DNA of 17,887 nt, from the NCBI GenBank assembly GCA_002713555.1, contig PATG01000092.1, positions 19,008-36,894 of the forward strand, written 5' to 3'. The notes under the pieces are model-generated. The model was not told where the DNA came from. It saw only the letters and a program-made list of their open reading frames with translations, and searched no databases. The translations under genes were made by a program, and so were the position numbers. The DNA is from Planctomycetaceae bacterium. GTDB taxonomy: Bacteria; Planctomycetota; Planctomycetia; Pirellulales; Lacipirellulaceae. Positions within the stretch are counted from its first letter, which is position 1; every line of letters starts with the position of its first letter. Shown one piece after another: positions 1,210 to 16,143 of this stretch.

Positions 1210-1590
1210 ATGCCCCAGTACGGTTTTCCAAAGTCTGTTCGTCTGCTCAAGCCGGCAGAATTTTCCTACGTATTCGAACAACGTTGCAGTAAGGTCGACA
1301 GCCTAATCGTCGTCTATGCTGCATACGGAACTTCTTCTCGACCTCGATTAGGAATGGCCGTATCGCGCAAATTCGGCAATGCCGTAATACGCAATCGATG
1401 GAAGCGTTCGTTAAGAGAAGCTTTCCGAAGGGTCCAGAACGAATTACCACGAAACCTTGATTTGGTTGTTTTACCGCGGCGCGGCGCCAGTCCAGATACG
1501 ATACGTTTACAGTCTTCACTAAAAAAACTTGCTGCATGTAATGCCAGCAAGCTTTCACAAAAGCAACCACCTTTGGAGAATCCATCCTGA
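1210..1590 (+). CDS. rnpA: Ribonuclease P protein component
   Basis: This is the protein subunit of RNase P, which binds the catalytic RNA and the 5' leader of precursor tRNAs during 5' maturation. The 126 residues match the usual family length (about 110-130). Visible landmarks are the N-terminal segment ([15 protein letters not shown], residues 10-24), the central strand ([16 protein letters not shown], 44-59) and the RNR motif ([13 protein letters not shown], 61-73) that contacts the RNA. Upstream in-frame codons offer no better start, and no Shine-Dalgarno sequence precedes the ATG. Downstream it overlaps yidD by four bases, the common rnpA-yidD pairing. The ribosomal protein gene rpmH, normally directly upstream, is absent here; the upstream neighbours are a membrane protein and dnaJ. 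Confidence 0.93.
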
Positions 1591-1814
1591 AAACTCTTTG
1601 GCAAATACCGCGATGGTTCCTCATAGGAATAATTCGGTGCTATCAATGGATCATCAGTCCTTGGTTAGGCCCTCGATGTCGATTTAAGCCAACTTGTAGC
1701 ACTTATTTTATTGCTTCACTCAAGAAGCATGGAGCAATTCGAGGTTCTATTCGTGGCATATTACGCATCGGGCGTTGTCATCCCTGGCATCCTGGAGGAT
1801 ACGATCCTCCTTAG
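1587..1814 (+). CDS. yidD: Membrane protein insertion efficiency factor YidD, CTG start
   Basis: YidD is a small, membrane-associated protein that assists YidC-dependent insertion of membrane proteins. The 75 codons read from CTG at 1587 show the family pattern: a hydrophobic start ([18 protein letters not shown], residues 12-29), the core [19 protein letters not shown] (31-49), and the C-terminal [12 protein letters not shown] (64-75) with its conserved Cys and HPGGYDP. There is no ATG, GTG or TTG between the upstream in-frame stop at 1539 and the conserved region. CTG at 1587 sits eight bases after GGAGA (1575-1579) and overlaps the rnpA TGA (CTGA), so it is the natural start. A sequencing error in an original ATG is possible. 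yidC, the usual next gene, is not present. Confidence 0.9.
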
Positions 1815-1949
1815 CCATTCTGCAATCATGGCATGGTTGATATACCCAAGCAAGAAATAATCGACTGCTGATTCTTTGTGGCTAAGCATAGGGTGCTAGC
1901 ATGTCCTGCAGTCTCTGTCTTGACCCCTTCTTCTCTGGCTCGTAAGCTT

Positions 1950-1974
1950 CTGCCCCATTTTAGGCATGGGGCGG
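1950..1974 (+). other. Stem-loop in the leader of the FlgI-like gene
   Basis: GCCCCAT (1952-1958) pairs with ATGGGGC (1966-1972) around a seven-base loop, and the stem extends outward by a T-G and a C-G pair. It lies about 60 bases before the start of the FlgI-like gene. There is no T-run, so it does not look like a terminator. It could be a leader structure or chance; the stretch 1815-2033 holds nothing else I can name. Confidence 0.35.
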
Positions 1975-2033
1975 ACCGGGTACATCTTGCCCGCATACCC
2001 CCTCTCATGTTGACCAGTAGGAGAACCATCGTG

Positions 2034-3746
2034 ATGCATCACGAGGCTGATAAGCCAATTCGTAGTATAGGCTTTGCTATGCTTGCATTGACTATCCTGG
2101 CAACAGGGTGCATGGGACCTGTACTCAGACAACAAAGCCCTGCGGTGCAAATACCAGAAGACGACTCCCCAGATACAAATCTCATTGGAGATGTAGCGCA
2201 TCCGTACGGCATGGGATACGTCAAATTAGAAGCAGTGGCACTCGTGACAGGACTTCAAGGAACAGGCGAAGACCCACAACCCTCTCCACAACGGGCTGCC
2301 ATGCTGGGCGAGATGAACCGTCGTGAAGTCGAGAATCCCAATCAAGTATTGGCGTCTCCCAATACGGCTTTAGTCTTAGTGCGTGGCCTACTAAAGCCTG
2401 GAATTGAGGCGGGGGAGCAATTTGATATTGAAGTTCGTGCACCATCACGGAGCAGCACAATCAGCCTGCGAGGTGGACAACTCCTCGAAACGCGCCTTAC
2501 AGAGATGGCCGTCTTAGGAGGCCAAATACGCCAAGGGCATTTAATGGCAATTGCCGAAGGTGCCGTGCTTGTTGATCCCAATGCTGATTCTCCTAAAGAC
2601 ATGGCTCGCGCCAGAATAGGTCGTGTGCTTGGCGGTGGACGGGTTCTTAAATCGCGCAGCCTGGGACTCATTCTCGACCATGAGCAGCAATCTGTTCGGA
2701 TGAGCCAATCAATTTCAAAATCTATCAACAAACGTTTCTACAGCTATTTTGAAGGACAACGAAGAGGAGTTGCCACCCCGAAAACGGATGAATACATCGA
2801 GCTTAAGTTACATCCACGTTACAAAGACAATGTTGGTAGATATATGCGTATTGTGCGAAACATTGCAATTGGCGAGTCCCATTTGCAGTCACAATCCCGC
2901 CTGCAATTGCTCAACAATCAATTGACCGACCCAATTACCTCTGCTTCTGCTGCCTTACGTTTAGAAGCAATTGGTAGTGAGCAAGCCATTGAAGTTCTTA
3001 AACAAGGACTCCTTGATGAAGACCCGGAAGTGCGTTTTTATGCTGCTGAAGCGCTCGCATATTTAGATATTACAGAAGCAATCAACCCCCTCACTGCCAT
3101 TACTAAAGAGGAGCCCGCCTTTCGTGCACATGCATTAGTTGCCTTAAGTGCTATGGACGATGGTGCTGCATACGAGCAATTGCGCACACTTTTACAAGTG
3201 AAGAGTGCTGAAACTCGCTATGGTGCCTTCCGAGCACTCACAGCCATGGCCCCGAATGATTCGTTGGTTCGTGGAGAATTAATGAACGAAAAATTCAGAT
3301 ACCACGTGCTCGATATTCCAGGCGTATCCATGGTCCATGTCACCAGTAGCCGCCGTCCAGAGATCGTTCTTTTTGGCAAAGACCATCCCCTGCAATTGCC
3401 ATTGGTATTGGATGCTGGCCCCCACATCCTGGTGAACGGTCTTAGTGGAGGAGAAGTCAAAATCACTCGTTTTGGAGAAACGACACAGCAGCGTGTTGTT
3501 TCCAATAATCTTAATGATGTAATTCGTACTGTTGTCGAATTGGGAGGAGAATATCCTGACGTTGTGCAAATGATACAGCAAGCTAAAGACACAGGTTGCA
3601 TGACGAGTCGCTTTAAGATTAATGCATTGCCTACAGGGGGCAATGAGATTTTGGAATCAAACCAAGACAACCTCGCAGATAGTGAAATTTCTGATTCCTA
3701 TCAAATCCAAACACCTCAACCAGAGTTGTTCGGCAAGAAGAGCTAA
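2034..3746 (+). CDS. FlgI-like (P-ring type) lipoprotein with inserted HEAT repeats
   Basis: The product has 570 residues from ATG 2034; GTG 2031 is an alternative. GGAGA at 2020-2024 supports this start, and reading further upstream would place non-signal sequence before a lipoprotein signal. Residues 9-26 form a signal ending in the lipobox LATGC (Cys26). Residues about 59-280 follow FlgI: VALVTGLQGTGED, a central NTALVLVRGLLKPGIEAGEQ, LRGGQLLETRL, ARIGRVLGGGRVLKSRSLGL and VGRYMRIVRNIAI. Residues about 300-400 are HEAT-type helical repeats (ALRLEAIGSEQAIEVLKQGL, VRFYAAEALAYLD, FRAHALVALSAMDD, TRYGAFRALTAM). The C-terminus returns to FlgI with NNLNDVIRTVVELGGEYPDV and MIQQAKDTGCMTSRFKI, matching the family's last helices. 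In flagella FlgI forms the P ring around the rod. Here no flagellar gene is nearby and the protein is probably lipid-anchored, so an envelope ring or scaffold role is inferred, not shown. Confidence 0.75.
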   Translation: MHHEADKPIRSIGFAMLALTILATGCMGPVLRQQSPAVQIPEDDSPDTNLIGDVAHPYGMGYVKLEAVALVTGLQGTGEDPQPSPQRAAMLGEMNRREVENPNQVLASPNTALVLVRGLLKPGIEAGEQFDIEVRAPSRSSTISLRGGQLLETRLTEMAVLGGQIRQGHLMAIAEGAVLVDPNADSPKDMARARIGRVLGGGRVLKSRSLGLILDHEQQSVRMSQSISKSINKRFYSYFEGQRRGVATPKTDEYIELKLHPRYKDNVGRYMRIVRNIAIGESHLQSQSRLQLLNNQLTDPITSASAALRLEAIGSEQAIEVLKQGLLDEDPEVRFYAAEALAYLDITEAINPLTAITKEEPAFRAHALVALSAMDDGAAYEQLRTLLQVKSAETRYGAFRALTAMAPNDSLVRGELMNEKFRYHVLDIPGVSMVHVTSSRRPEIVLFGKDHPLQLPLVLDAGPHILVNGLSGGEVKITRFGETTQQRVVSNNLNDVIRTVVELGGEYPDVVQMIQQAKDTGCMTSRFKINALPTGGNEILESNQDNLADSEISDSYQIQTPQPELFGKKS

Positions 3747-3777
3747 AGTCCATCCAATGACACACTTGCATTTATCA

Positions 3778-3796
3778 AGAAGAAGCAACTTCTTTT
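3778..3796 (+). terminator. Weak candidate terminator after the FlgI-like gene
   Basis: AAGAAG (3780-3785) pairs with CTTCTT (3789-3794) across a CAA loop, extended by two further pairs including one G-T, and runs straight into T-rich sequence. The stem is AT-rich and therefore weak. The remainder of 3747-3952 shows no gene and no clear promoter for smc. Confidence 0.3.
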
Positions 3797-3952
3797 AGAA
3801 ACACTTTTTAACTAACAACCAATTCATTCCACACCTCCGCGCTTACGAAACACGTGACCAGGATTTCATACTCTGAAAACGCCTACCACGAAATCCCATA
3901 AAAGAACGCTTCACTATTTCACTTTTTCCATTGCTCGCTTACATTCCTGCAC

Positions 3953-6900
3953 ATGTTCAAAGCCCTGGAACTAAACGGCTTCAAAAGCTTTGCCGATCGC
4001 ACTCGGTTTGAGTTCCCTTCTGGAATCACTTCTGTGGTTGGTCCGAATGGTTCGGGCAAGTCGAATGTTGTAGACGCCATCAAGTGGGTTTTGGGGGCAC
4101 AAAGTGCCAAAGCTTTGCGAGGCAAGGAGATGACCGATGTCATTTTCAGTGGCACAAGCAGTCGACGGCAAACTGGCTCTGCCGAAGTAACACTTATTTT
4201 TGACAATTCAACTGGCATTCTCGACTTTGATGCTGACGAAGTCCAAATCACCCGACGCGTGTACCGTAGTGGTGAAGGGGAATACCTGATTAATCGTCAA
4301 CAAGTGCGATTACGCGATATCCGAGAGGTGTTTGCTGGCACGGGTGTTTCGACTGGTGCTTACAGCATTATTGAACAAGGGAAAGTCGATGCCCTATTGC
4401 AGTCTTCACCCCGTGAGCGACGTCTCATCTTTGAAGAAGCGGCAGGCGTAAGTCGATTTAAGCTCAAGCGTCAGGAGGCGGCGCGACGTCTAGAACGTGT
4501 TGAACAGAATTTACTACGTCTCTCTGATATCGTAGATGAACTTGATTCGCGTCTTCGGAGCGTGCGATCTCAGGCAGGTAGAGCACGTAAGTACAAGGAG
4601 CAATCCGACAGGCTCAAAGAACTGCGTACACAGGCAGCACTTACTGACTGGCGTGATCTTACATATCAGCAGAAGAAACTTCAAGACGCTGCAAATGACA
4701 AACGCAAAGCCAGTGAAGAATTACAACTTCAAGTTACAACGAGTGATCAACAACTTGTAACGGCCGAATCCGAAACCGATCGTTTACAAAACGAGCTGAA
4801 TAAGACCAGCGATCAGGCAGCAAACGCCCGAGAACGTATTGCCCAATGTGAATCTACTCGCCGCAGCCAACTCGCACGTTGTGATGAACTCGAGCAAGAA
4901 ACAGAGCGACTCAAGCAGCAGTTGCTGGTTATGACTTCACGGGCCGGAGATGCAGAACAGTTGGTTTCAGAAACGGAACTTGAACTTGAAACTGCCGAAA
5001 ATCAGTACAACACACTACATCAAGATGTTCACTCCCAACAAACCCAATTAGATCTGGTTCAAAAGTCTCTCGCCCAATGTCGAACCAAAAACGAATCGTA
5101 TCGCAATGATCACACGGCCACACTACGTGCAGCAACAGAATTAGAACATCAAATCCACGCCCTCGAGTCCGAACGCACACGCATTCTAGCTACAAAGGAG
5201 CGTCTTCAAGAGCAACTCCAGCATGCTGAGTTAAACCGATCTGAGCTTGCACAACAACTTGGGCAAATCCAGAAATCTCTCCAAACCTCTGAAATTGAAA
5301 CTAAAGAGGCTTTGCAGCGATTTACTCAAGTGCAAGAAAAATTGGAGGCAGACCGTCAGCTACTTTCTAAATCTCAATCTCAATTGGCGGATCTACGGGG
5401 TAGGTTAGTAGGTGGACGAGAACGCGCCATTGTACTTGAGGAACTAGAGCGCCGACTGGATGGGTTGAGTGCTGGTACTAAAGAAGCACTCAAAAGGTCC
5501 CAAGAACAACCTGAAGGGCCTTTTGGTTGCATACGTGGTATTGTCGCCGACTTATTGAACGTTGACGCCGACAGTGCTGCACTCGTAGAGACGGCACTGG
5601 GCGAACGTGCCAATTATTTACTTATTGAAAAAGCTGACCCATCCTTCTTCACAATGGTCGAAAGCGATTGGGCTGGACGGACGAGTTTTTTAAGACTCGA
5701 CGTACCCTTGCCTGCCAGCGCTGTAGACCGCATTGATCTAAGTCGTGAACCAGGAGTTATGGGTCGTGCAGACCAGTTTGTCGAATCGGCTCCAGATTTA
5801 GCAACTCTTACGCGTCGATTATTAGGGCGTTGGTGGTTTGTTGATGCCTTACCAACTGCAATACGGTTGGCCAATGGTGTCGGGCGTGGCTTAAATTATG
5901 TAACTGTTGTAGGCGAAGTACTTGCGGCTGATGGCACTTTTATTGTAGGACCACGACAATCCACAACTGGATTACTATCACGTCGTAGTGAATTACGCGC
6001 TCTTATCGACGAAATCCATGAAATGGAGGCTCAATCAGAACAGAAAGAAGCAATATGCAAAAAACTGGAAAATACCATCAAGCAAGATGATCAAAAACTT
6101 AAAGAGTATTCCGTCACACACAAGCAGTTTGCTGAACAACTCGGACAAGTTCAACTTAAATACGCGGCAATGCGAGAACGCGCAGATCAAGCCGATCGAC
6201 AATTTACTGCTGCTAAAAAAGATTTATCAACAGCCTATAAAGATGTCGACTCCTCAGGGAAAGATCTGAAAGAACACTGCAAATCATTGGCCAATTACCA
6301 AGCCAATTTAGAAGAACTCAACAAGTCCATTCACGAATGGTCTGACAAAAATAATCAGCTCGAAGAAAAGCAAACAGCTCTGCAAAAATCGGTTTCTGAC
6401 CAGCGTGTCGCGTTGGCTCGCAGCGAGCAACGTCGAAATGGCTTGCGAGGACAAATGGAGCAATTCGAGCGTGACCATGAAGAACACGACAGGGCACTTG
6501 CCGAGACCCGTCATCGCGATGCTGAGTGCCAACAGCAGCAGCAATCCTTAAAACAGTCGGTTCAGAATCTTGGAGACGAACTAGCTGAACTCTACCAGAC
6601 GAAAGAAAAACTTTCTTCTGATTCTCAATCGCTCAGCCAGAAGCATGCTGAGCAACGAAAACAACGCTCAGAACTGCTTCAAAGGGGTGATTTATTGCGT
6701 GAACAGCTACTCAATAGCCAGAGCACCCTGCAACAAGCTGAACTTCGATTGCAGCAAATTCAGCAGAAGCGAGCGGACATGGGGGCACGCATGTCTGATG
6801 ACTACGACATTGACCTGGCTGCATTGGCTGCAACAGAAACTCCAGTAGAACTTGGTCCACGTGAAGAGATTGATCAGGAAATTAATACTCTTAGACAAAA

Positions 6901-7564
6901 GCTCCAAAACATTGGTCCCGTAAATATAGAAGCACTCTCGGAGCTAGAAGCCGTTGAAGATCGTCACACGAACCTATCACAGCAATACGAAGATTTACGC
7001 AAAGCCAAAATCCAACTCGAGCAATTGGTCGCTCAAATAAACACTGAGAGCCGTGACCTATTTATCAAAGCGCTCGATGTAATTCGAGGCCATTTCCAAG
7101 AGCTCTACGGCAATCTTTTTGGCGGTGGTGAAGCCGATATCATTATCGACAATAGTGAAATTGAAGACGTACTGGAATGCGGTATAGAAATTATCGCACG
7201 TCCTCCAGGCAAGCAACCCCGCAGTATTTCGCTTCTTTCTGGCGGCGAACGCACACTAACCTGTGTTGCTTTGCTACTGGCAATTTTCCGCAGTCGCCCG
7301 AGTCCCTTCTGCGTGCTGGACGAAGTCGATGCAGCCCTCGATGAAGCCAATATTGTCCGATTTGTCGATGTTCTAAAAGAATTTATGAGTTCAACGCAAT
7401 TCATAATCATCACGCACTCAAAGCGGACTATGTCGTGTGCTGACACGTTGTACGGAATCACCATGCAAGAATCAGGAATCTCAAAACGAGTCTCAGTCCG
7501 ATTTGAAGATGTATCGGAAGATGGTCATATTCGAGAAAGTGATAGCAAGGCAAAAGCGGCCTGA
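3953..7564 (+). CDS. smc: Chromosome segregation/condensation ATPase SMC
   Basis: SMC dimers load on DNA with ScpA/ScpB and organise and segregate the chromosome. The 1203 residues match bacterial SMC. Domains in order: N-terminal ATPase half with LNGFKSFADRTRFEFPSGIT and Walker A GPNGSGKSN (30-38); a Q-loop region (GAYSIIEQGKVD, about 137-148); first coiled coil about 165-515; hinge about 520-670 (GPFGCIRGIVADLLNVDADS through TVVGEVLAADGTFIVGPRQ); second coiled coil about 680-1050; C-terminal half with signature LLSGGER (1094-1100) and Walker B FCVLDEVDAALDEA (from 1119; catalytic Glu1124). The start is fixed by family alignment, although no Shine-Dalgarno sequence is visible before it. scpA and scpB are not in the window. 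All catalytic elements are intact. Confidence 0.97.
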   Translation: MFKALELNGFKSFADRTRFEFPSGITSVVGPNGSGKSNVVDAIKWVLGAQSAKALRGKEMTDVIFSGTSSRRQTGSAEVTLIFDNSTGILDFDADEVQITRRVYRSGEGEYLINRQQVRLRDIREVFAGTGVSTGAYSIIEQGKVDALLQSSPRERRLIFEEAAGVSRFKLKRQEAARRLERVEQNLLRLSDIVDELDSRLRSVRSQAGRARKYKEQSDRLKELRTQAALTDWRDLTYQQKKLQDAANDKRKASEELQLQVTTSDQQLVTAESETDRLQNELNKTSDQAANARERIAQCESTRRSQLARCDELEQETERLKQQLLVMTSRAGDAEQLVSETELELETAENQYNTLHQDVHSQQTQLDLVQKSLAQCRTKNESYRNDHTATLRAATELEHQIHALESERTRILATKERLQEQLQHAELNRSELAQQLGQIQKSLQTSEIETKEALQRFTQVQEKLEADRQLLSKSQSQLADLRGRLVGGRERAIVLEELERRLDGLSAGTKEALKRSQEQPEGPFGCIRGIVADLLNVDADSAALVETALGERANYLLIEKADPSFFTMVESDWAGRTSFLRLDVPLPASAVDRIDLSREPGVMGRADQFVESAPDLATLTRRLLGRWWFVDALPTAIRLANGVGRGLNYVTVVGEVLAADGTFIVGPRQSTTGLLSRRSELRALIDEIHEMEAQSEQKEAICKKLENTIKQDDQKLKEYSVTHKQFAEQLGQVQLKYAAMRERADQADRQFTAAKKDLSTAYKDVDSSGKDLKEHCKSLANYQANLEELNKSIHEWSDKNNQLEEKQTALQKSVSDQRVALARSEQRRNGLRGQMEQFERDHEEHDRALAETRHRDAECQQQQQSLKQSVQNLGDELAELYQTKEKLSSDSQSLSQKHAEQRKQRSELLQRGDLLREQLLNSQSTLQQAELRLQQIQQKRADMGARMSDDYDIDLAALAATETPVELGPREEIDQEINTLRQKLQNIGPVNIEALSELEAVEDRHTNLSQQYEDLRKAKIQLEQLVAQINTESRDLFIKALDVIRGHFQELYGNLFGGGEADIIIDNSEIEDVLECGIEIIARPPGKQPRSISLLSGGERTLTCVALLLAIFRSRPSPFCVLDEVDAALDEANIVRFVDVLKEFMSSTQFIIITHSKRTMSCADTLYGITMQESGISKRVSVRFEDVSEDGHIRESDSKAKAA

Positions 7565-8256: not shown

Positions 8257-8276
8257 CATTTATTGGAGTACCCGTG

Positions 8277-8849
8277 ATGAAGGTCTTTACTACTGGCCAG
8301 GTCGCCAAGATTTGCAAAGTGGCCCCCCGCACGGTCAGCAAATGGTTTGACTCTGGAAGATTGAAGGGTTATCGCATTCCTGGTTCGCAAGACCGCCGTA
8401 TCCCTCGAGAATATTTGATCAAATTCCTCAAAGAGCATGGCATGCCGCTAGGCGATCTTGAGGATGAAGCGATGGCAAAAGTGCTGATTGTCGCTCAAGA
8501 TCAAGTTTTGATCGAGAATCTCAAGCGAGAATTGCCAGCCGAAAAATCATTCCGCACTTCGACAGCCGCTAGTGGTTTCGAAGCCGGAATCCAAGCCGAA
8601 AGTTTCCACCCCGATTGCATCATTGTTGATTTTTCGATCGGCCAAGTCGAGGCGCTTCAAATTTGCCAAAATCTGCGACGCAGCAACGACTTTGCCGAAA
8701 CGACCTTGATTGCCTTATTGCCTGATGATGGCACTACGGCCAGCTTTGATCGTTCGAGCATCAACGAAACGTTCAAAAAGCCATTCGACGCTGCTCTATT
8801 AGCTGAGCGACTACGAACGCTTATTGGAGCACGCAAAGAGCTGGTCTAG
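8277..8849 (+). CDS. DNA-binding protein: MerR/excisionase-type HTH fused to a receiver-like domain
   Basis: The product has 190 residues. ATG 8277 is preferred over GTG 8274 because GGAG (8265-8268) then lies eight bases away. Residues 3-54 form a compact helix-turn-helix of the MerR/BldC/excisionase type (VFTTGQVAKICKVAPRTVSK, WFDSGRLKGYRIPGSQDRRI, PREYLIKFLKEHG). Residues 67-187 look like a CheY-type receiver: first strand AKVLIVAQDQ with Asp75, phosphoacceptor position Asp118 in CIIVDFSIG, and the conserved Lys168 in FKKPF. The usual Ser/Thr switch position in strand 4 (LIALLPDD) carries Leu, so signalling may be atypical or phosphorylation-independent. The order HTH then receiver is reversed relative to ordinary response regulators. 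No histidine kinase is adjacent, and the gene stands alone behind a long leader and before a strong terminator. Target genes are unknown. Confidence 0.85.
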   Translation: MKVFTTGQVAKICKVAPRTVSKWFDSGRLKGYRIPGSQDRRIPREYLIKFLKEHGMPLGDLEDEAMAKVLIVAQDQVLIENLKRELPAEKSFRTSTAASGFEAGIQAESFHPDCIIVDFSIGQVEALQICQNLRRSNDFAETTLIALLPDDGTTASFDRSSINETFKKPFDAALLAERLRTLIGARKELV

Positions 8850-13792: not shown

Positions 13793-15154
13793 TCACTTAT
13801 AAAACGCAACACTGGCAAAACTTACACAGGAGGTGCGGTCATCTGCTACCGCATGGTCGTACTTCAATAGTTCCCCCCGACAAGCTCCTATCACCTTGAG
13901 CATGACATACATAGGGGCTAAACCACAGATGCGGTTTTTATCCGCTTGGGCCGCAACATGAATAAACCATGCTTCGGCATCTCCTTCGCATGCTCGGGCC
14001 AAAAGTTCCTGGTCGTCAGTCCATTGCTCCGTCAACCTGGCATCTGTTAGTAATTCTGAATCTCCAAACTGTTGGCCTATATGTGCTAGATCAACACCCG
14101 CTATAAAACAGATTTTCTTTTTGCTCTGGGATGCTGTCTCACGAAGCACATGAATAAAGTCAGCAACCGCCTCCGAATCACCAGGAGGACGATTGTGCTG
14201 GACAAAAGGGTGAAACGACCCTACCAAAATTGGCACGATCGAATAATTGCGACGCTCACCCAATACGTATTGCAGCATCAAAGTTTGAAATTCAATGGAA
14301 TGCTCGCTACGGTGCGGTAATTCATCATTAAAGATATCTTCCACTTCGCTCGCATTATCACATGCTTCCAAGCGAGATTTAAGATCAGCAATAAAGGCAT
14401 GATCCGTTTGTACTGTCCCCAAGGGAGTATCAAAATGCTTTTGTGATACGCTAAACAGACTGGCCAGAGGTGTGTGTGCCGTTCCTAGAATAATATAGAT
14501 ATCGGCGTCCGAATCTGCCACAACGCGGTCGTATGCCCAAGCAAAAGTGGGGCCACCACGGTGCAAATCAATATGGGGACTCATCACCGCACAAAGTTCA
14601 TGATCTATACTATTCGGAACCTCATCCGATTGGCTTCCATTTTGGACGGGATTCGAACCATCGGTCTCTTTTTGAGAGTTATTCCCTTCCCAAGGTAATA
14701 ATCCAGGCCCACCTTCACTGGTAAAGAGATTACCCAATTGAGTGTTCAGTTCTTGAACACCTTCTTCGTAAGCTCCACCAGCGTGTGCTGCCGGCCTCAC
14801 CTTGAGTTGTTTGTATTGCGTTTTTAATTCTTCCTGGTAATCCGCAAATCTTTGGTTATCAAGCATGTAGCGCTGGTCAAGTTGATTGACTACACGCTGG
14901 ACATCAGGCAGTGATATTGATTTGCCAACCTTATGCTCAAATTCCCTACGCAAGTCGCCTAGCGTTCTCTCACCATTCATCAGCGTCACCAACATGGCTG
15001 CCCCCATAGGCAAAGCTACGGTTTCAGAAAAACCATAGGGGTCCCGCAGCGCGTACATCGATTCGTCCTCCTCACTGAGTGGAACCAGTTCCAGAGCACG
15101 GATCCGAGGTTGCAAATCGGGTGTCATGTCATTGGGTGATAAATTTTCAGGCAT
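13793..15154 (-). CDS. Memo-family (AmmeMemoRadiSam system protein B) protein with N-terminal winged-helix-like domain
   Basis: The product has 453 residues. The C-terminal half (about 185-453) is a Memo domain, a fold related to extradiol dioxygenases and LigB; bacterial copies are named AmmeMemoRadiSam system protein B and have no settled function. Conserved parts seen: SPHIDLHRGGPTFAWAYDRV, ILGTAHTP, the LPHRSEHSIEFQTLMLQYVL block, VPILVGSFHPFV and FIAGVDLAHIGQQFG. Their His, Asp and Glu residues form the putative metal pocket. The N-terminal 35-110 region (FSETVALPMGAAMLVTLMNG, ERTLGDLRREFE, SLPDVQRVVNQLDQRYMLD) resembles the PqqD-like winged helix. A low-complexity Gln/Asn/Ser linker (about 145-180) joins the halves. 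The AMMECR1 and radical-SAM partners are not adjacent. The start has AGGA ten bases upstream, with ATG also at residue 10. Confidence 0.85.
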   Translation of the reverse strand: MPENLSPNDMTPDLQPRIRALELVPLSEEDESMYALRDPYGFSETVALPMGAAMLVTLMNGERTLGDLRREFEHKVGKSISLPDVQRVVNQLDQRYMLDNQRFADYQEELKTQYKQLKVRPAAHAGGAYEEGVQELNTQLGNLFTSEGGPGLLPWEGNNSQKETDGSNPVQNGSQSDEVPNSIDHELCAVMSPHIDLHRGGPTFAWAYDRVVADSDADIYIILGTAHTPLASLFSVSQKHFDTPLGTVQTDHAFIADLKSRLEACDNASEVEDIFNDELPHRSEHSIEFQTLMLQYVLGERRNYSIVPILVGSFHPFVQHNRPPGDSEAVADFIHVLRETASQSKKKICFIAGVDLAHIGQQFGDSELLTDARLTEQWTDDQELLARACEGDAEAWFIHVAAQADKNRICGLAPMYVMLKVIGACRGELLKYDHAVADDRTSCVSFASVAFYK

Positions 15155-15318: not shown

Positions 15319-16143
15319 ATGACGCGTCCCCTTTGCCTCGTATTGGTTGTCGCTGTTACAGGATGTAGCGGGGTCCGTAAGATCCTGGCTCCCTCGAATG
15401 TGCGCAACTGGTCACCAGACCAGGCCGTGCTACCCTATGCTGAATTTCAGGGGCAAAAGATTACCGTTCATAACGTCCGAAACTGTCGTTACTTCTCTGA
15501 TGATGTCTATGTTGTCCAGCACGAAGATCGTGTCTATGACCTGAGTGAACTGCAGTCCGTTGACTTCTTTGTAGTACCGTTTGAGAACATGCCTGCCATA
15601 GCACATACCATGCTAAGTTTTGAATTTCGGCCTCCAGGAGGAACTCCACAAAGACTAGCCGTAAGTGTTGAAACTCGCAAAGAACTCGGTGAACAATATG
15701 CGGCCTGGAAGGGAAGTGCCCGGCAATATGAATTAATCTATGTTCTCGCTGATGAGCGTGACGTTATTGGTGTTCGTGCCAACCATCGGGGTGAAGATAT
15801 TTATCTCTATCCAACAACCGCAACTCCAGAGCAAGCCCGTAATCTATTTGTTGATATAGTCAGCCGTGCTAACGAATTGGCAAGTCGTCCCGAGTTTTAT
15901 GATACGTTTACCAATAACTGCACGACCAATATTGCCCGGCACATCAATCGCATAGCACCTCAACGTATCCGATACGACTACCACATCTTACTCCCTGGCT
16001 ACTCCGATAAACTAGCTTACGAAGAAGGTCTCATCCAGCGCTATGGTACTTTTAAGGAAACTAAGGCCAAGGCATACATTTCGCCATCAGCAATCCTATT
16101 TGCGGAAAACGAAGATTTTTCTAAAAAAATCCGGTTGAGGTAA
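15319..16143 (+). CDS. DUF4105/Lnb N-terminal-type lipoprotein, putative Cys-His peptidase-like
   Basis: The product has 274 residues. The first 16 residues form a short lipoprotein signal ending in AVTGC (Cys16), so the mature protein is probably anchored to a membrane on the periplasmic side. The body matches the DUF4105 family, known as the periplasmic N-terminal domain of Lnb-type proteins: DVYVVQHEDRVYDLSELQSV, FFVVPFENMPAIAHTMLSFE, VETRKELGEQYAAWKG, then YDTFTNNCTTNIARHINRI. The conserved Cys201 in NNCTTN and nearby His residues suggest a papain/NlpC-like fold; enzymatic activity is not established. No Shine-Dalgarno sequence is visible, but a good promoter lies upstream. Transmembrane segments found in larger Lnb proteins are absent, so this is a soluble, lipid-anchored version. 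Confidence 0.8.
   Translation: MTRPLCLVLVVAVTGCSGVRKILAPSNVRNWSPDQAVLPYAEFQGQKITVHNVRNCRYFSDDVYVVQHEDRVYDLSELQSVDFFVVPFENMPAIAHTMLSFEFRPPGGTPQRLAVSVETRKELGEQYAAWKGSARQYELIYVLADERDVIGVRANHRGEDIYLYPTTATPEQARNLFVDIVSRANELASRPEFYDTFTNNCTTNIARHINRIAPQRIRYDYHILLPGYSDKLAYEEGLIQRYGTFKETKAKAYISPSAILFAENEDFSKKIRLR

Follow-up and report, generated by a model that had tools for sequence, protein, structure and literature searches.

The window analysed here is a stretch of 17,887 nucleotides from a Planctomycetaceae bacterium (positions 19,008 to 36,894 of contig PATG01000092.1, assembly GCA_002713555.1), and at positions 2034-3746 of its plus strand it contains an open reading frame with an ATG start whose translation gives a protein of 570 amino acids, here called the FlgI-HEAT protein. 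This protein matches the Pfam family FlgI (PF02119) in two stretches with an E-value of 2.3e-21, the better one covering residues 51-281 and positions 2-227 of the 343 in the profile, and also HEAT_2 (E 3.2e-12; best stretch at residues 297-371), next to which Pfam HEAT and HEAT_PBS are matched as well. It begins with a signal peptide (residues 1-25; 2034-2108), recognizable in the sequence and as a helix at residues 10-23 of a structure model, followed by the lipobox cysteine Cys26 of the motif LATGC (2109-2111), whose lipidation is predicted from its conservation in relatives. The FlgI N-terminal part (residues 47-282; 2172-2879) is separated by a HEAT-repeat insertion of eight helices (residues 283-406; 2880-3251), evident from Pfam, from the model and from matches to HEAT-type repeat proteins, from a C-terminal beta domain seen in the model (residues 407-531; 3252-3626), the end of which bears a FlgI C-terminal signature in family-level matches (residues 487-531). 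The remainder (3627-3746, including the stop codon) is a tail modelled with low confidence, with a TPxPxLF motif that is common to many close relatives. An earlier note, made from the sequence alone, had claimed an N-terminal block of FlgI type, which the PF02119 match confirms, and a HEAT insertion of about 100 residues that splits two FlgI halves; the HEAT_2 match and the modelled helices bear out the insertion, but its size is about 124 residues. We are highly confident that the protein is a member of the FlgI fold family and that it is non-flagellar.

The structure model used was built from a 75-row alignment; a first model from 21 close relatives (alignment A1) was discarded for its poor N-terminal half (mean predicted local distance difference test score, pLDDT, 58.8). 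The FlgI fold, on whose presence in a model the earlier note had staked its claim, is found, and it is interrupted at about FlgI residue 245 by the insertion, modelled as eight helices at residues 283-405. These helices and the HEAT profile matches are shared with HEAT/PBS-lyase-type repeat proteins (PF13646, PF03130); here, by contrast, the repeats interrupt another fold, and the protein that carries them has an export signal. The C-terminal FlgI block was also part of the original claim. In this sequence alone it is weak: a profile of 50 flagellar FlgI proteins gave 1.8 bits (E 0.37), and a full-length profile comparison gave a second, C-terminal match with a P-value of 0.25. At the level of the family, however, 29 of 75 C-terminal domains score above 5 bits, whereas five shuffled sets and one reversed set each gave none of 75, and a profile of this domain aligns residues 487-531 with the C-terminal 45 residues of FlgI (P 1.3e-6, probability 90.6). 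Judged by these sequence comparisons, the C-terminal FlgI half is real at the family level.

With a signal peptide that ends in a lipobox cysteine, the protein qualifies as a predicted lipoprotein, as the earlier note had supposed. Cys26 is invariant in all 33 rows of an alignment of relatives (A2), and it is at least 90% conserved both in the 75-row alignment A5, which includes relatives down to 23% identity, and at the matching column of a 43-row alignment of phylum members (A6). The residue at position +2 sorts lipoproteins, and Met27 at this position would point to the outer membrane. At five loci (L015, L017, L036, L037, L111) the lipobox is preceded by an RR motif resembling a twin-arginine translocation (Tat) signal, and some members may thus be exported in a folded state.

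Flagellar FlgI is a soluble periplasmic protein without a lipid anchor, and to our knowledge the FlgI fold has previously been known only as the flagellar P-ring. The fold is common to both proteins (PF02119; PDB 7cbl, 7bgl, 8z5n). Unlike flagellar FlgI, however, the FlgI-HEAT protein has a lipobox and a HEAT insertion, is longer (about 570 versus about 360 residues), falls into a separate clade and is kept where flagellar rings were not found, and its gene adjoins smc instead of flgH. Forty named loci were compiled, for 30 of which a class is given (in all cases Planctomycetia), and the 29 genomes behind 30 of the named loci were examined. All 29 encode the FlgI-HEAT protein; 24 encode in addition a second FlgI of flagellar type (99-239 bits), whose contig also carries FlgH a short distance away, and in these 24 genomes the FlgI-HEAT gene is located at least 126 kb away from flgI/flgH or on another contig. 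The gene is flanked by rnpA-yidD and smc, not by flgH, which in the 24 relatives adjoins the other FlgI. Neither FlgI nor FlgH was matched in the other five genomes (G004, G019, G023, G024, G027), nor in six more of 294 phylum genomes that contain the FlgI-HEAT protein (G084, G156, G249, G286, G295, G303). For G156 assembly gaps are an unlikely cause of the missing flgI/flgH, because the contig in question comprises 3,868,357 bases of a 3.9 Mb genome. The flagellar marker FliG_C was without a match in seven of these 11 genomes and gave only weak matches (32-51 bits) in G004, G295 and G303, of a kind that flagellated genomes carry as a second copy; it had replaced the FliF C-domain (PF08345), which was dropped as it matched none of 13 genomes, the flagellated controls G006 and G012 included.

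In a tree of the N-terminal part, 59 FlgI-HEAT rows are set apart from 50 planctomycete flagellar FlgI rows by one branch with a support of 100 in the Shimodaira-Hasegawa-like approximate likelihood ratio test (SH-aLRT). This tree is unrooted, was calculated with a quick method from 109 rows (18 FlgI-HEAT rows of 127 having been dropped beforehand) and SH-aLRT as sole support, and covers FlgI from planctomycetes only, with no other phyla. The nearest relative in the tree is L004 (78% identity over the N-terminal part), whose genome is G004, one of those without flagellar FlgI and FlgH matches. The 570-residue protein scores 69.4 bits with the NCBIfam model for FlgI, whose cut-off is 300 bits. 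The non-flagellar character suggested in the earlier note is thus upheld by the separate flgI/flgH of relatives and by phylogeny, the evidence coming from relatives of the window's organism. In G002, FlgH is matched a second time, in part (53.6 bits), at 2498-2698 of contig 13, inside a frame of 727 residues.

A search with an N-domain profile (A4) detected the FlgI-HEAT protein in 43 of the 294 phylum genomes, with scores of 119-342 bits (the highest match read as flagellar FlgI scored 104 bits) and open frames of 539-897 amino acids. PF02119 and HEAT_2 were both matched at E ≤0.01 in all 43; the full-length profile A2 drew many HEAT candidates, few of which were scored, and A4 was used for the count. 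This count is a lower bound, because A4 missed nine genomes, hand-picked from weak PF02119 matches, that hold more divergent FlgI-like frames (six of the nine over the Pfam cut-off). These divergent planctomycete proteins, for example L188 and L193, likewise have a lipobox (present in all four frames inspected: L188, L189, L193, L195), a FlgI-like N-terminal part (E 1.5e-7 to 4.9e-5 in four scanned, two being under the Pfam cut-off) and frequently smc downstream. They differ in their length of about 485-515 residues and in that no Pfam HEAT match was obtained for the four scanned. In six of the nine genomes smc follows directly, in two it does not, and one contig ends too early; by locus, smc is directly downstream of L188, L193, L202 and L203 and not at L189 or L195. 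Named homologues of the FlgI-HEAT protein are of Pirellulales, Planctomycetales and Planctomycetaceae types, and those among the distant members, which share about 25% identity with the protein in the window, are Phycisphaerales and Phycisphaeraceae. Entries that name an organism, a minority (among the best 120 matches in two of three listings), are all planctomycete except P0183, named 'bacterium'. Owing to its spread across these groups the family should be old within the phylum, and the FlgI-HEAT proteins probably represent an old lipoprotein family of Planctomycetota.

In the window, the gene is preceded on the same strand by rnpA (1210-1590; PF00825) and yidD (1590-1814; PF01809; start codon not fixed) and followed, 206 bases past its stop codon, by smc (3953-7564, plus strand; Pfam SMC_N and SMC_hinge, and the adjacency survey). 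Pfam matches confirm all three neighbours named in the earlier note. There smc had been listed as a mere non-flagellar neighbour, but it turned out to be much more conserved than any other. Across 61 loci, which are not independent (the window, the 40 named loci and 20 distant regions), smc follows immediately in the same orientation in 49, with gaps of 3-293 bases between the last sense codon and the first possible start codon; locus L031 ends too early for a judgement. Among the 20 distant regions smc is found in 18, followed by moaC and polyprenyl synthase (four each) and by rnpA and dnaJ (two each); the rnpA family occurs in 28 of the 61 loci. Of the 43 phylum genomes with the protein, 38 have smc immediately after the gene and in the same orientation, with gaps of 7-293 bases, which in six genomes and one further group were measured to the start of smc similarity. 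The arrangement also occurs in genomes without matches to the flagellar ring genes. As a control, smc was inspected in 30 hand-picked genomes that were negative in the profile search (25 loci with an smc start, two with little upstream DNA). By the profiles used, a FlgI-like frame was found upstream of smc at one of the 25 loci (G051), and four of the 30 genomes (G030, G051, G058, G062) later turned out to be among the nine divergent ones, with smc adjacent in three.

As an overall explanation we tentatively favour, with a confidence somewhat short of even, a non-flagellar FlgI-fold lipoprotein that serves as a collar or scaffold and is tied to smc. Its lipid tail would tether the protein to a membrane, by the +2 rule the outer membrane, so that an FlgH L-ring would not be needed. 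By analogy with the 26-mer P-ring, the FlgI part might self-associate into a ring, arc or patch at the level of the peptidoglycan, while the HEAT arms would hold a partner protein, and transcription shared with smc would couple the amount of protein to chromosome replication and segregation. The protein would then act as an envelope collar or scaffold and not as a flagellar bushing, a mechanism that we regard as possible but rather doubtful in this form.

Several observations weigh against this explanation. Of the 20 distant members, two or three have no clear lipobox, and the sequence evidence for the C-terminal half of FlgI is weak. Most surveyed genomes are drafts without completeness figures, and G019 has a full FliG_C match although flgI/flgH are unmatched, so that its ring genes may be lost to an assembly gap. 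In 11 of the 61 loci smc is not directly downstream (it is absent there in 10, and at L018 it is encoded on the opposite strand, 4.2 kb upstream); it is 2.8 kb downstream in G249 and was not found within the 14-22 kb seen in four of the 43 phylum genomes (G006, G196, G303, G140). The linkage is therefore not obligatory. Moreover, SMC resides in the cytoplasm, whereas the FlgI-HEAT protein bears an export signal, and an exported protein is out of reach of SMC. Direct contact is therefore not expected, and the simplest account of the link is shared expression, which could be either regulatory, in keeping with the cell cycle, or historical. In the historical case smc would be hitch-hiking, an ancestral operon having been frozen since smc uses the promoter of the upstream gene, with no functional coupling. 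To this we give almost an even chance: a scan of positions 1500-4100 found two promoter-like and two terminator-like sequences (3.4 and 2.9 expected) and thus no excess, and the gap to smc is only 3-28 bases in six loci, but the pair is split in the four genomes just named and hence breakable, and other neighbours have been reshuffled among the same distant members.

The distance between the FlgI-HEAT gene and flgI is just 41-50 kb in five phylum genomes (G077, G098, G210, G256, G267), which also speaks against the favoured explanation and would suit an accessory of the planctomycete flagellar basal body, such as a second P-ring or an H-ring-like collar. The FlgI fold itself, the presence of flagellar FlgI and FlgH in most genomes behind the named loci and the name FlgI given to the protein in several source databases fit such a role, which is nevertheless very unlikely given its separation from flgI/flgH in those 24 genomes and its retention in genomes without flgI/flgH matches, including G156, where it is on the 3.87 Mb contig of a 3.9 Mb genome. 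A further alternative is an envelope lipoprotein for assembly or quality control that forms no ring, with the FlgI part as a binding module on the peptidoglycan or membrane side and the HEAT repeats as a docking surface. HEAT repeats are typical docking surfaces, and the parts appear exchangeable, as the four divergent proteins, two of them beside smc, combine a FlgI-like N-terminal part with no Pfam HEAT match; on the other hand, the whole FlgI N-terminal part is conserved in fold, with many invariant residues, and we consider this alternative somewhat unlikely.

In two papers, the phylum is described as having lost FtsZ and its division as unexplained (PMC10632474, PMC5147048). Among our 294 phylum genomes, FtsZ exceeded the cut-off in none (10 weak matches lie below it), while 13 of 14 control genomes were positive. 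FtsZ was consequently dropped as a contrast, since with no genome passing the cut-off the presence of the FlgI-HEAT protein cannot be set against FtsZ loss. Judged by titles or the beginnings of abstracts in the literature collection searched, we found no paper describing the FlgI-HEAT protein, and the main text of PMC10632474, on the essential genes of Planctopirus limnophila, contains none of the terms flagell, smc and P-ring. An smc-linked ring protein in the envelope would be a fair candidate for the division machinery of the phylum, though one to which we attach a low probability. It is equally improbable that a P-ring-fold lipoprotein ring is a core part of the FtsZ-less division or chromosome-segregation machinery, as a collar anchored in the membrane where the cell divides or at the bud neck, which would share one transcript with SMC and whose HEAT arms would dock constriction or wall enzymes. 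The label FlgI hides the FlgI-HEAT family and could make non-flagellated genomes appear flagellated. The P-ring fold is recast here as a protein carrying a lipobox and HEAT repeats, which is kept where flagellar rings were not found and whose gene is tied to smc in an FtsZ-less phylum of unexplained division.

Some additional features were noted in the window. Between a dnaJ-type gene and rnpA, positions 677-1021 encode a small protein with one hydrophobic stretch and no Pfam family above the cut-off; frames homologous to it are present at 18 of the 61 loci, none of them distant. Positions 8274-8849 encode a fusion of HTH_17 with a response-regulator receiver domain, a homologue of which lies in the vicinity at 20 of the 61 loci. 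A Memo-like protein encoded on the minus strand (13793-15154; PF01875 at residues 122-449) has about 120 extra N-terminal residues. Positions 15319-16143 encode a protein with a periplasmic Lnb_N domain (PF13387, E 3.4e-41) and a lipobox-like start.
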